This document shows positions 23,677-28,044 of a DNA stretch of 43,967 nt, one piece after another; within the stretch, counting starts at the first letter, position 1, and every line of letters begins with the position of its first letter. A program made the translations under genes and the position numbers. The notes below the pieces were generated by a model, which saw only the letters and a list, made by a program, of their open reading frames with translations, did not search any database and was not told the DNA's origin. Origin of the DNA: a bacterium (GTDB lineage: Bacteria > Bdellovibrionota > FAC87 > UBA2466); contig RFNT01000057.1 of assembly GCA_009927045.1 (NCBI GenBank), positions 1 to 43,967 on the forward strand, read 5' to 3'.

Positions 23677-24237
23677 ATGACAGCTTGGACGTTAAAAGTA
23701 GGCCTTGTTTTAGGAACAGCATTATTTATCGGAAAGGGATATGCCGAACAAGAAACCGGAGTGACACCCACTCTCATCAAACCTTATAGAACTTTTGTTA
23801 CCATCAAAAAGTATAATCTAGAAAACAACGGAATTCCTTCAAAACCAATTTCAAATGTGAAGTTGGAGATCAAGTTTCCAGGGGGTCATGCAGTTCAACT
23901 TCCTGAGGGGGGGCATTACTGGTCCATTGGAAATAACCAGTCTCAAGAAATCAATCGCACTTTCGAACTCCCTTTTACAGTGATTCAAAACGACGGCTTT
24001 TCATTTGAACTCACCATGATCCGAAAAGGAAAGAAAATTCTTCCATGTCGTTTTGAAGTAGCTAAACTTTCTCAATTCAATCGATCTTATATTTGCCGAA
24101 CCGATGTGGCGTTTCAAACCAATCAACAACATTTGCCGGATGAGAAAGTCGCTAAGGAGGCCATTGAAATACGAGTATTCAGTGATTTAAATGCGCTCCC
24201 TGCAGAAATTCCTAAAGACGCTATTGCTCTCAAGTAG
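23677..24237 (+). CDS. Secreted protein, unknown function
   Basis: A 186-residue protein with an N-terminal signal peptide (hydrophobic WTLKVGLVLGTALFIGK, then GYAEQE cleavage region). The mature part is rich in beta-strand-like alternation and carries two Cys residues (LPCRFEV, YICRTD) that could form a disulfide in the periplasm. No family motif is evident. The ATG follows a GGGGGAGAG ribosome-binding site. The gene ends 35 nt before a strong intrinsic terminator, so it seems to be a single-gene transcript with its own leader. Confidence 0.65.
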   Translation: MTAWTLKVGLVLGTALFIGKGYAEQETGVTPTLIKPYRTFVTIKKYNLENNGIPSKPISNVKLEIKFPGGHAVQLPEGGHYWSIGNNQSQEINRTFELPFTVIQNDGFSFELTMIRKGKKILPCRFEVAKLSQFNRSYICRTDVAFQTNQQHLPDEKVAKEAIEIRVFSDLNALPAEIPKDAIALK

Positions 24238-24272: not shown

Positions 24273-24307
24273 GGCCCAGTGCTCAATGAGCGCTGGGCCT
24301 TTTTTTT
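24273..24307 (+). terminator. Rho-independent terminator after the 23677 gene
   Basis: GGCCCAGTGCTC (24273-24284) and GAGCGCTGGGCC (24288-24299) form a 12-bp stem with one G-U pair and an AAT loop, followed by eight T residues (24300-24307). It serves the plus-strand gene. There is no U-tract on the other strand, so the convergent gene does not use it efficiently. Confidence 0.95.
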
Positions 24308-24953
24308 AATGACCAAACTCTGCTCTTAAAAAGCCTTTTTGAAGCAGTTGCCCGTCTTCTACTCGGAGGAGGAGTTGTGTAGGTTTGGAATTTAAAACTG
24401 AATCAATGGCTTGCGTGGAGAAAGCCAACTCCCCTTCAGAGACGCTCTCTCTGACTAAAATCACTAAGGATTCCGTATTCAAATCTGACATTTGATACCG
24501 GTCCATATCTGTCTTAATAATTTCTGCACGCTCCGCCAAATCTTGAATGTCTAAATCAACCCGGGGAATAGGCCGGTAAGTATTTTCCTCTTCAACAAAC
24601 TCACCGGATGTGTTTTGAGTCATTCGAACTACCATTCCTAGTATAGGGACTCCCTCTTGCACAAAACGATAGCTGACTGTTTTACCGAAGGGAGATTCGG
24701 ATTCCTCGGCTTCCATCTGATGGTAGTCCTGCACACCCCACTGTTGTCTCAATTTCTCTTCGTTTAAATCCGGGTAGCCTAGGGCTTGAACTCGTGGCTC
24801 TTCAGAGGCAATTGCTCGATTGCCTTCAGCAGTCGGTGTTGAACACTGGGCTGGGCGTGCAGCAATCCTTGGAATAGAAACTTGCTTTTCTCCTGGGGTC
24901 ATTCGGAACCAAATCAAAACACCGAAACACGTTGCAAGAACAAGTTTTCTCAT
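24306..24953 (-). CDS. Exported propeptide-like (FTP/PepSY-type) protein, separate from its protease
   Basis: The 215-residue product begins with a weak hydrophobic leader (KLVLATCFGVLIWF). Its central segment, VSYRFVQEGVPILGMVVRMT followed by a Thr/Ser and acidic loop, resembles the FTP propeptide domain of M4/M36 metallopeptidases, where a VPV/ILG core packs on the catalytic domain and inhibits it. It overlaps the metalloprotease gene immediately upstream by 4 nt (ATGA), so the pair is translationally coupled. It may therefore act in trans as an inhibitor or chaperone of that protease. The resemblance is short and by eye, so moderate. Confidence 0.5.
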   Translation of the reverse strand: MRKLVLATCFGVLIWFRMTPGEKQVSIPRIAARPAQCSTPTAEGNRAIASEEPRVQALGYPDLNEEKLRQQWGVQDYHQMEAEESESPFGKTVSYRFVQEGVPILGMVVRMTQNTSGEFVEEENTYRPIPRVDLDIQDLAERAEIIKTDMDRYQMSDLNTESLVILVRESVSEGELAFSTQAIDSVLNSKPTQLLLRVEDGQLLQKGFLRAEFGH

Positions 24954-26545
24954 AGGCTCAACTCCAAGTTGAATCTGGATTCACCACCGTTTTCAGAAAT
25001 CACTTTCAAAACTATCGGGATTCTAGTTCGGCCGTTGGCATGTTTCTTATCCAAGGATAAGGAAACAGAAGACTGAAGAGCTGAATAATTGTTTCCTACA
25101 ATTGAAATGGTTGCATTTGAGCCGAGATCACCAAAGCCTTGAAAGTTGGTAATAGGAACCACTGCAGGATCCCCTGTTTCAATGACCAATCGGAGATTTC
25201 TGGCACTTGCTCTGTTTGGATTCTTAATTTGAATATTGAAGAGAATTTCTTTTGCTGATCCATTCGCGGCGACGGGAATCGCCTGACTACCGGAAAAGTT
25301 AAATCCTACTGGCACTGCCTGAAGTTGTAGCTTGGAAGTCAAAGGGGCAACTGTTTCTGCAAAGCCCTTTGAGGTAAAAGCCTTTCGAATGGATTGCTGA
25401 TGCAGGCCACAGTGGAGTCGAGTATCAGATTCCAAAAGAGCGGCTCGAAACTCACTCATCGATGCGTTTTTTCCAAGAAGGGCTACGGCACCAAAAATAG
25501 TTCGGTCAGAGAAGAAGGCTCCAGTTTGAGAGTCTTCCTTTTGGAACTGCTGCCGAATTTCCCACAGCACTCGCGAGCACCATTCTCCGACTAGATAAGT
25601 TCTGTTACCGTGTGTTTGCGGGTTCCAAGTTCCCACTTGGGAAAAGTTATTTTTGGAATCATTTTGTGAAACTGCCCACCTTAAGGGCTGACCCGGTTTT
25701 ATTTCTTTTATATTTTTAGCGGTCCATTTGCCGATATACCCTTTTCCGGAGGCACTTTCAGCCAAGTAATCAGCTAAGCACTCGTGAAGAGCTCCGGACT
25801 CTGCGTAGATAGCGCCCCTCTCGGTGGCTTCATCTAAACCCTTGCTAGCACTCACACTTTCATTGAAGAGATGCCCAAATTCGTGCCAAAACACATCACG
25901 GTCCGCCCCCAAGGGATATTGAACATCCCCAAACAACTGAATGTAACGGGGCAGTTGGGGTTGTTGGGTATTATGAACGTAATAGGCATTGATATCTTTT
26001 CCCACAGGGGATTCGGTCTTCTCAGGATCCAAATTGGAACGAACCATCACAAATAAAGGCCGCGATTGATCCACTGAAAATCCAAGAGACTTTACGAAAT
26101 CAGAGATGGCAGTGATGGCATGATAAGCCATCACTTGGGAGTATTTTGGGTCTTTAACTTCCACAGATGCTTCGGAGAGCTCCTGGGGATTTACTAATAA
26201 ATCCGCAGAATCAAAACGACTGTGCTGTCGCACTTTGAGAAATTTATTTTCAAGACTCGCAGTGCTGGACAGCCCGGGCAACCCAACTGCATCTTGAGCA
26301 TTTCTAAAAGTACTTGAAGAAAACTCAAATAAATTCAATTTGGGAGAGTCGATGGGATTGGGAAGAACTAGATACGCTTTGGCTCCGACAGGAAACTCAT
26401 CTTGTTGAAGCTGTAAAAGCTTTTCCGTGTTGGCAAGAGGTCCTCCTGCGCAATCGGTCAATCGAATCGAACAGCTCGAAAGAATGAACACGATGAGAAG
26501 TGCGCAAAAGATGGATTCAAGATGTCGTAACCTGTTGCAAAGCAT
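24950..26545 (-). CDS. Lipoprotein gluzincin metallopeptidase (M4/M36-like)
   Basis: An export lipoprotein (lipobox LSSC near residue 25) of about 531 residues from the ATG at 26545; a GTG seven codons upstream is an alternative. The metal site is His221-Glu222-Phe-Gly-His225 (FWHEFGHLFNES). Thirty residues later Glu255-x-x-x-Asp259 (HECLADYLA) gives the ExxxD third-ligand motif of gluzincins such as thermolysin and fungalysin. SALHECLADYL-type and YAESGALHE residues support M4/M36-like catalysis. A C-terminal domain of about 110 residues rich in beta-strands (starting near PVAANGSAKE) looks like a secreted-protein adhesion or Ig-like module. Its propeptide-like domain is encoded by the next gene. 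Confidence 0.68.
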   Translation of the reverse strand: MLCNRLRHLESIFCALLIVFILSSCSIRLTDCAGGPLANTEKLLQLQQDEFPVGAKAYLVLPNPIDSPKLNLFEFSSSTFRNAQDAVGLPGLSSTASLENKFLKVRQHSRFDSADLLVNPQELSEASVEVKDPKYSQVMAYHAITAISDFVKSLGFSVDQSRPLFVMVRSNLDPEKTESPVGKDINAYYVHNTQQPQLPRYIQLFGDVQYPLGADRDVFWHEFGHLFNESVSASKGLDEATERGAIYAESGALHECLADYLAESASGKGYIGKWTAKNIKEIKPGQPLRWAVSQNDSKNNFSQVGTWNPQTHGNRTYLVGEWCSRVLWEIRQQFQKEDSQTGAFFSDRTIFGAVALLGKNASMSEFRAALLESDTRLHCGLHQQSIRKAFTSKGFAETVAPLTSKLQLQAVPVGFNFSGSQAIPVAANGSAKEILFNIQIKNPNRASARNLRLVIETGDPAVVPITNFQGFGDLGSNATISIVGNNYSALQSSVSLSLDKKHANGRTRIPIVLKVISENGGESRFNLELSL

Positions 26546-26672
26546 GCGTGTTGACTCTTTCAACACGACTATCAGTGCAACCTCAGTGCCGCGCAGTTCA
26601 GCGAGGAGCGCCTCCTAAAACTGAATAAACTTTGGACAGTTAGAATACACCCCGGCTGGAACTCTATTTTAA

Positions 26673-26778: not shown

Positions 26779-28044
26779 TTGAAAGCAGTCAGAGGCATGC
26801 ATGATTTGTTTGGCGTAGAAATCGCCAAATGGCAGTGGATTGAATCTCAAGTAAAACAAGTTTTTGAGAACTTTGGTTACCAGGAAATTCGAACTCCTGT
26901 TTTGGAGTCTGTCGAAGTCTTTAGCAAAACCGTTGGAGATGAAACGGACATCGTTGAGAAACAGATGTATTCGGTTCAAAAAGAGTCTGAGTCTCTAGTT
27001 CTCCGACCCGAAGGCACTGCGGGTTTTGTCAGGGCGGTTCTGGAACACCAACTGCATCGAGATGCTCTCCACCAACGATTTTTTTACTACTTGCCCATGT
27101 TTCGACATGAGCGTCCTCAAAAAGGAAGACTTCGCCAATTCCATCAATTCGGAGCCGAACTGATCAATGATGATTCCCCGGAAGCGGATGCCGAGGTTAT
27201 TGCCTTATTAGTCGCGATATACAAAAAACTGAGAATAACTGAGTATGAAGTCCGCATTAACAGCCTGGGTTGCACAGAGTGTCGGCCAGGGATGAAAAAA
27301 CAACTCTTGGATTTTCTACAGCCCCGTTTAGAGCACTTGTGTGAGCTCTGTAAAAAAAGATTTGAAAGAGCTCCGCTACGAGTTTTGGACTGTAAGCGTG
27401 AAACGTGTAAAACCGCGGTGGCTGGAAGTCCTCAACTCAATCAGTGTCTTTGTGACCAGTGTAAAACTCATCATGACCAACTGAAGAAACGCCTGAACGA
27501 AGCTGATGTCACTTTCATTGATGATCCATCAATTGTGAGAGGGCTAGACTACTACTCCCGAACGGCGTTTGAGTTCACTTCCTCATTATTAGGAGCACAA
27601 AGTGCTTTAGGCGGTGGAGGACGTTACGACCAACTCGCAAGCCGGTTCGGTGAAAAGCCTTTTCCTGCCGTGGGATTTGCTCTGGGCATGGAGCGCTTGG
27701 TGATCGCTTTGGAAGCAAAAGGGGCATTTCCAGAAATCAAGGCAACTCCTGATGTTTATTTGGCAGCACTAGGAAATCTCCCGATGGACCATTTATTTCC
27801 CCTTTCGATTCAGTTAAAAAGTTCGGGCGTGCAAACAGAAATAAGCTATGCGGCTGATAAACCTTTGAAGTGGCACTTGAAACAATCCAATCGACTCCAA
27901 TGTAAATTTACTGTGATTCTTGGAGAAGATGAGCTGAAAAAGAAAGTCATCCTAGTGAAAAATATGGCTGCTCAAACTCAAGTTGAATTTCCATTGGACT
28001 CCGCTCGGACACATATTCTTAAACAGGTGAAAAGTGAAAACTAA
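26779..28044 (+). CDS. hisS: Histidine-tRNA ligase
   Basis: Class II aminoacyl-tRNA synthetase charging tRNA-His. GMHDLFG opens the protein, LRPEGTAGFVRA is motif 2 loop, RGLDYYSRTAFEF is the histidyl-specific signature and GFALGMERLVIAL motif 3. The insertion between motifs carries a Cys-rich segment (CTECRPGMKK, LCELCKKRFE, LDCKRETCK, CLCDQCK), as in many bacterial HisRS. Translation starts at TTG 26779, with GGAGG five bases upstream, rather than any ATG. The 3' end overlaps aspS by 11 nt. Length is 421 residues, normal for the family. Confidence 0.96.
   Translation: MKAVRGMHDLFGVEIAKWQWIESQVKQVFENFGYQEIRTPVLESVEVFSKTVGDETDIVEKQMYSVQKESESLVLRPEGTAGFVRAVLEHQLHRDALHQRFFYYLPMFRHERPQKGRLRQFHQFGAELINDDSPEADAEVIALLVAIYKKLRITEYEVRINSLGCTECRPGMKKQLLDFLQPRLEHLCELCKKRFERAPLRVLDCKRETCKTAVAGSPQLNQCLCDQCKTHHDQLKKRLNEADVTFIDDPSIVRGLDYYSRTAFEFTSSLLGAQSALGGGGRYDQLASRFGEKPFPAVGFALGMERLVIALEAKGAFPEIKATPDVYLAALGNLPMDHLFPLSIQLKSSGVQTEISYAADKPLKWHLKQSNRLQCKFTVILGEDELKKKVILVKNMAAQTQVEFPLDSARTHILKQVKSEN

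Follow-up and report, generated by a model that had tools for sequence, protein, structure and literature searches.

FTP/PepSY propeptides encoded in cis are well known, and zymogens of the M4 and M36 families are normally activated by cleaving such a propeptide off. The pair of genes described here resembles the pro-enzymes of fungalysin (M36) and vibriolysin (M4) (structures 4k90, 3nqy and 3nqz) in both its catalytic and its FTP-PepSY propeptide folds; in those enzymes, however, the propeptide is N-terminal, in cis and cut off, whereas its counterpart here is specified by a separate downstream gene and has a probable membrane anchor. Functional precedents are RhpP-RhpC of Pseudomonas and protealysin-emfourin of Serratia, the latter being a two-gene metalloprotease and inhibitor pair (PMC9505478); in each of these operons, the gene for a metalloprotease is coupled to that for a small chaperone or inhibitor protein. 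No known M4-type propeptide is present in RhpP, and the cytoplasmic 11-kDa RhpC, although not described as a propeptide homologue, has been termed a "functional mimic of prepropeptides" (PMC6490944). The partner studied here, in contrast, is exported, has an FTP-PepSY fold and accompanies an M36-type enzyme. The layout also recalls Lif/LipH, which are membrane-anchored steric chaperones with a flexible linker (PMC3352829, PMC13381987). This likeness is architectural only; the client of Lif is unrelated (LipA, which goes on to type II secretion), while the client here is a lipoprotein. Propeptide domains occur as independent proteins in SUB1-ProM (PMC6993865) and crammer/I29 (PMC3551606), but these concern eukaryotic serine or cysteine (subtilase- or papain-like) proteases and are not operon-coupled as the bacterial pair is. 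No description of a trans-encoded M4 or M36 propeptide was found in the open-access literature.

The window, i.e., the whole 43,967-nucleotide stretch of DNA that was analysed, contains two minus-strand genes, referred to below as the protease and the partner, whose features are collected in Table 1. Both open reading frames were re-found at the positions assigned to them by the first-pass annotation, with the 4-nt overlap that it had reported. The partner starts at the ATG (24953) within this overlap, and an ATGA overlap is present in 12 of the 13 complete homologous pairs, TAATG being found in the thirteenth. As listed, the protease ORF begins with a GTG at 26566 and codes for 538 amino acids; the alternative ATG at 26545, which yields a 531-residue product, is the better start because a purine-rich AAAGAG sequence lies ca. 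9 nt upstream of it and because of where homologues start. From position 26779 on, the upstream neighbour is a divergent gene that, from reading its sequence, we take to be hisS-like. The downstream neighbour is a convergent gene (positions 23677-24237, plus strand) for an exported protein of 186 amino acids, which is conserved beside the pair in a large part of the class to which the genome belongs and has no match in Pfam or NCBIfam. A strong terminator-like hairpin (24273-24299) is located between this gene and the protease-partner pair.

Table 1. Features of the protease-partner locus (window positions).
Feature	Position	Strand	Basis
Protease gene, M36-type (fungalysin-like) lipoprotein metalloprotease, 531 aa	24950..26545	-	Pfam M36, AF2 fold match, invariant catalytic residues
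Lipobox LSSC; residue +2 is Ser, not Asp	26471..26482	-	Lipidation Cys invariant across class
HEFGH zinc-binding/catalytic motif	25871..25885	-	Sequence, homologue alignment
E262..D266 (ExxxD), third zinc ligand motif	25769..25783	-	Invariant in 13 homologues
C-terminal beta-sandwich (Ig-like) domain of protease	24953..25339	-	AF2 secondary structure, pLDDT ~90
GGAG, Shine-Dalgarno-like, 8 nt before partner ATG, within protease gene	24962..24965	-	Sequence
ATGA stop/start overlap of the two genes, predicted translational coupling	24950..24953	-	Kept in class pairs
Partner gene, 215-aa exported FTP-PepSY protein, probable trans-encoded propeptide	24306..24953	-	AF2 + Foldseek; profile comparisons
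N-terminal hydrophobic segment of partner, probably uncleaved signal anchor	24906..24944	-	No [AV]xA site in 13/14 class members
FTP-like four-strand part of partner, residues 78-124	24582..24722	-	AF2; profile comparison
PepSY-like helix and strands of partner, residues 136-208	24330..24548	-	AF2; profile comparison
C-terminal tail of partner, LRAEFGH; candidate active-site-cleft peptide	24309..24329	-	Class consensus (P)RxEF; putative role

The protease belongs to the M36 family: HExxH and ExxxD are present, the curated Pfam M36 cut-off is passed (24.5 bits versus 23.3, E = 2e-5), and the M36 fold is matched. Its AlphaFold2 model (mean pLDDT 71, pTM 0.76, with an N-terminal half of low confidence) finds its best fold match in 4k90_A, the Aspergillus M36 enzyme, with other M36 chains, aureolysin and vibriolysin ranking next. 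Residues H228, E229, H232, E262 and D266, as well as the lipobox cysteine, are invariant among 13 homologues, while position 3 of HEFGH varies. The lipobox cysteine, the motifs and the Pfam match bear out the earlier reading of this protein as a lipoprotein gluzincin with HEFGH and ExxxD. An N-terminal FTP/PepSY propeptide, which is typical of M36 enzymes but forms no part of their catalytic definition, is absent in cis and is found in the next gene. The lipid-bearing cysteine and HEFGH are separated by 196 residues, compared with ca. 183 residues before HExxH in mature M36 (fungalysin) chains; there is, therefore, space for the catalytic domain alone, in agreement with the first-pass annotation, which had described the protease as lacking an N-terminal propeptide.

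Searches of Pfam, NCBIfam and PDB with the single sequence of the partner (P0001) gave no useful match, and so the assignment was made using family profiles and structure. Pfam FTP (PF07504) was not detected in P0001 and reached E 0.023 in one of 13 class members. An alignment of 13 partners contains an FTP-like core with the consensus PLGTxVxYxVYQxGxPIxGMxIxxxVxxxGxVxxxxNxYRPI. In the AlphaFold2 model built from this alignment, residues 61-210 (pLDDT ~94) form four strands, a helix and further strands. When this model was compared with 350,542 PDB chains by Foldseek, the top three matches, 3nqz_A and 3nqy_A of vibriolysin and 4k90_B of fungalysin, were all propeptide chains of M4/M36 enzymes (E 2e-5 to 3e-3, probability 1.00). 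The TM-scores are moderate (about 0.4-0.5) and the rmsd is close to 5 A; the two halves of the partner may therefore be arranged differently relative to each other. PepSY/BLIP-like structures 2gu3 (YpmB) and 4fr9 appear lower among the matches. Since the partner matches 4k90_B and the protease matches 4k90_A, the adjoining genes correspond to two chains of one solved propeptide-enzyme complex.

When mature regions were compared by hhalign, FTP propeptides together with stand-alone FTP proteins gave a score of 81 (E 7e-12) with the partner family; scores did not exceed 14.7 for 30 column-shuffled versions or 13.1 for four unrelated alignments taken from the same genomes. The class partner profile used by itself reached E = 0.18 at best against a PDB propeptide, and the assignment thus rests on structure and profile-profile comparison. 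The exported protein with an FTP/PepSY-like core that had been proposed from the sequence, with structure prediction as the suggested check, is recovered by the family profile and the predicted model alike; the outcome named beforehand as refuting, a lack of this fold, was not obtained. No Pfam or NCBIfam match linked the partner to the emfourin or RhpC inhibitor families or to the lipase chaperone (Lif) families.

The partner begins with a short segment that is basic and hydrophobic and has no obvious signal-peptidase site; a flexible linker comes next (ca. residues 28-59, pLDDT < 50). The strict [AV]xA signal-peptidase motif was found in 6 of 68 partners, as opposed to 7 of 9 proteins encoded by the neighbouring exported gene. 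Judging by this simple motif count, the segment is probably an inner-membrane signal anchor rather than a cleaved signal peptide. At the other end of the protein, just past the last strand, lies the RxEF tail, which is conserved in the class.

Conserved synteny had been named as a further check, and it was found at both levels studied. Within the class, the pair is present in 14 of 15 genomes, a second family included, with the protease cut by a contig end in one of them; the fifteenth genome, which is 73% complete, has neither gene. The relatives carry the names of Bdellovibrionales or Deltaproteobacteria MAGs. A search of 369 genomes of the phylum with the partner profile first retrieved the true partners, with one adjacent copy in each genome that has them plus an extra short fragment in one genome, and no orphan full-length copies were seen in genomes of the class. 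Next in rank (E 5e-5 to 5e-3) came the N-terminal propeptides of M36-like proteases of the cis type, and FTP proteins that stand alone; three of the latter, from family f23, score above the Pfam cut-off for FTP.

Outside the class, the protease profile retrieved many M36-like genes, of which 16 + 60 loci were sampled and sorted by the position of HExxH (room versus no room for a propeptide). A small co-directional ORF directly follows the protease at 71 of 74 propeptide-less M36 loci of Bdellovibrionota; the gap ranges from -115 to +19 nt and is mostly between -8 and +15, the largest overlaps probably reflecting start codons set too far upstream. At L149, in an f9 genome, a partner-like gene is found ca. 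519 nt downstream of the protease and is not adjacent; at L142, the protease is frame-broken, and the partner-like gene lies 955 nt downstream; L162 is the sole propeptide-less locus for which no partner is shown. Conversely, an FTP-like downstream gene was found at none of the 13 M36 loci with room for a propeptide; at one of these loci (L158), the long N-terminal region could not be shown to be FTP. The corresponding Fisher p = 5e-13 is descriptive only because relatedness is ignored and the two groups were scored by unlike rules: an FTP-like score was required at cis loci, which had in part been found via FTP profiles, while propeptide-less loci were counted on size and position.

Not every small ORF behind an M36 gene can be counted as a partner: 4 of the 13 cis loci are followed by a gene of another family, whose FTP score (<=19.3) is background. 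Six cis-FTP M36 genes of the class (L015, L030, L031, L032, L033 and L034) are followed by an overlapping gene, by 4 nt in several cases, for an exported, outer-membrane-barrel-like protein of 236-319 amino acids with a background score against FTP. One genome contains, in addition to the split pair (G000:C66), a second M36 enzyme with its FTP propeptide in cis (G000:C233, L087), and this organism thus has the split and the fused design side by side.

The fold, gene coupling, conservation and complementary trans/cis distribution of the partner were all computed. From homology and gene arrangement, we infer with good confidence that the partner acts in trans as a propeptide for the adjacent protease, which it would bind, help to fold and inhibit. 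Most likely, then, it serves as a trans-acting, membrane-anchored steric chaperone and inhibitor. In such a split zymogen, the upstream gene would supply the catalytic half as a lipoprotein, and the coupled downstream gene would supply the anchored FTP-PepSY propeptide. Both chains would be exported by Sec. In the periplasm, the anchored propeptide domain would bind the nascent catalytic domain as a steric chaperone and would fill the active-site cleft, perhaps via the RxEF tail, leaving the enzyme silent in the periplasm of the producer. The protease would later part from its anchored partner, probably via lipoprotein sorting to the outer membrane, and would be active there.

In E. coli, a lipoprotein residue +2 other than Asp favours the outer membrane. 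This residue is not Asp in the window protease or in the relatives read, and the partner appears to be anchored, so the two proteins may separate en route to the outer membrane. We likewise infer the localisation and release steps: the Lif-like layout and the +2 residue are the grounds for proposing that the anchored propeptide both folds the enzyme and keeps it silent until separation activates it. Activation by separation is a tentative proposal, to which we would give somewhat less than an even chance. The first-pass annotation had envisaged an inhibitor or chaperone anchored near a lipid-tethered protease; the lipoprotein protease stands, as does a probable inner-membrane anchor of the partner, but their nearness is put in doubt by the +2 residue, given that the two may separate.

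The same data can be read as a case of pure self-protection, in which the protease folds alone and acts on prey or competitors, and the partner is an immunity-type inhibitor that shields the envelope of the producer. An inhibitory role of PepSY domains has been postulated (PMC2954215), protealysin and emfourin have been suggested to form an effector-immunity-like pair (PMC9505478), and an anchor would hold such an inhibitor at home. One partner stands beside each protease, though, and the class has no full-length orphans, unlike many immunity families. Moreover, as known for the family, the cis FTP-PepSY relatives are all pro-domains that classically also fold the enzyme, and we consider a purely protective role unlikely. 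A foldase without physiological inhibition could be envisaged on the model of Lif, which has been classed together with protease propeptides as a steric chaperone (PMC3352829). The order of signal anchor, flexible linker and folded domain and the position of the gene directly downstream of its client are indeed as in Lif. Yet the RxEF tail is conserved as if for binding, and M4/M36 propeptides of this fold normally inhibit as well, which makes a role restricted to folding improbable to a similar degree.

It would be very surprising if the partner were an FTP/PepSY-fold protein with another target, akin to BLIP or YpmB, and its proximity to the protease merely operonic. The presence of 2gu3 and 4fr9 among the lower fold matches speaks for this reading, but M4/M36 propeptides make up all of the best three matches, the two genes have stayed adjacent in many families of the phylum, and the partner adjoins the protease where the cis propeptide is missing, with no FTP-like partner where it is present. 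The 4-nt overlap could also raise the suspicion of an annotation artefact, i.e., a single zymogen gene that was frameshifted or mis-called. This is effectively excluded: the catalytic domain precedes the propeptide, each has its own export signal, and 12 of 13 relatives share the overlap without stops.

If the partner is the anchored chaperone and inhibitor that we propose, a naturally separate propeptide would mean that chaperoning and inhibition are possible in trans and can be switched by localisation. The proposal also suggests what a conserved but unannotated gene beside M36 lipoproteins may do in a phylum containing bacterial predators, and the genome with both trans and cis M36 enzymes would offer a natural experiment on the purpose of covalent propeptide linkage.

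Partners of families f8, f20, f24 and f25 consist of FTP and PepSY parts. Their profile matches 3nqy_A (E 2.4e-6) and 4k90_B (1.3e-4) by sequence, also matches thermolysin 5a3y_A (E 2.4e-4), and gives E 5e-12 when aligned with the window family; Pfam FTP was detected in 5 of 10 of these proteins (E <=0.1; lowest, 3e-4). Partners of the large family f9 are 150-220 amino acids long, and their resemblance to PepSY is limited to the C-terminal half. They score 28-38 against FTP propeptide alignments and f8 partners (shuffled versions, <=16.7), and Pfam PepSY was found in 2 of 24 of them at E 0.03 or worse. No PDB chain was matched by the f9 profile; these partners are, therefore, termed PepSY-like tentatively and are perhaps PepSY-only. 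That a split M36 zymogen with an anchored FTP-PepSY or PepSY-only propeptide is widespread in Bdellovibrionota, activated by spatial separation and not by propeptide proteolysis, appears to us about evenly balanced. At nearly all f9 loci (L100, L101 and others), a gene for an exported protein of ~900-1100 amino acids lies directly upstream of the M36 lipoprotein gene, forming a three-gene unit with it and the partner gene.

In family f23 (L094, L095 and L096), a stand-alone Pfam-FTP gene is located upstream of the M36-like lipoprotein gene, i.e., in the reversed order. A tree of catalytic domains placed the window clade nearer to the cis-FTP M36 enzymes (88/89) and grouped f8, f9, f20, f24 and f25 elsewhere (91/70). 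The best tree contains two or more trans groups, but the AU test does not reject a tree in which the split arose once (p = 0.18). The split may have arisen more than once, once with the reversed gene order of f23. The f23 split pair adjoins an acyltransferase-like gene, with another short ORF in between at L096.
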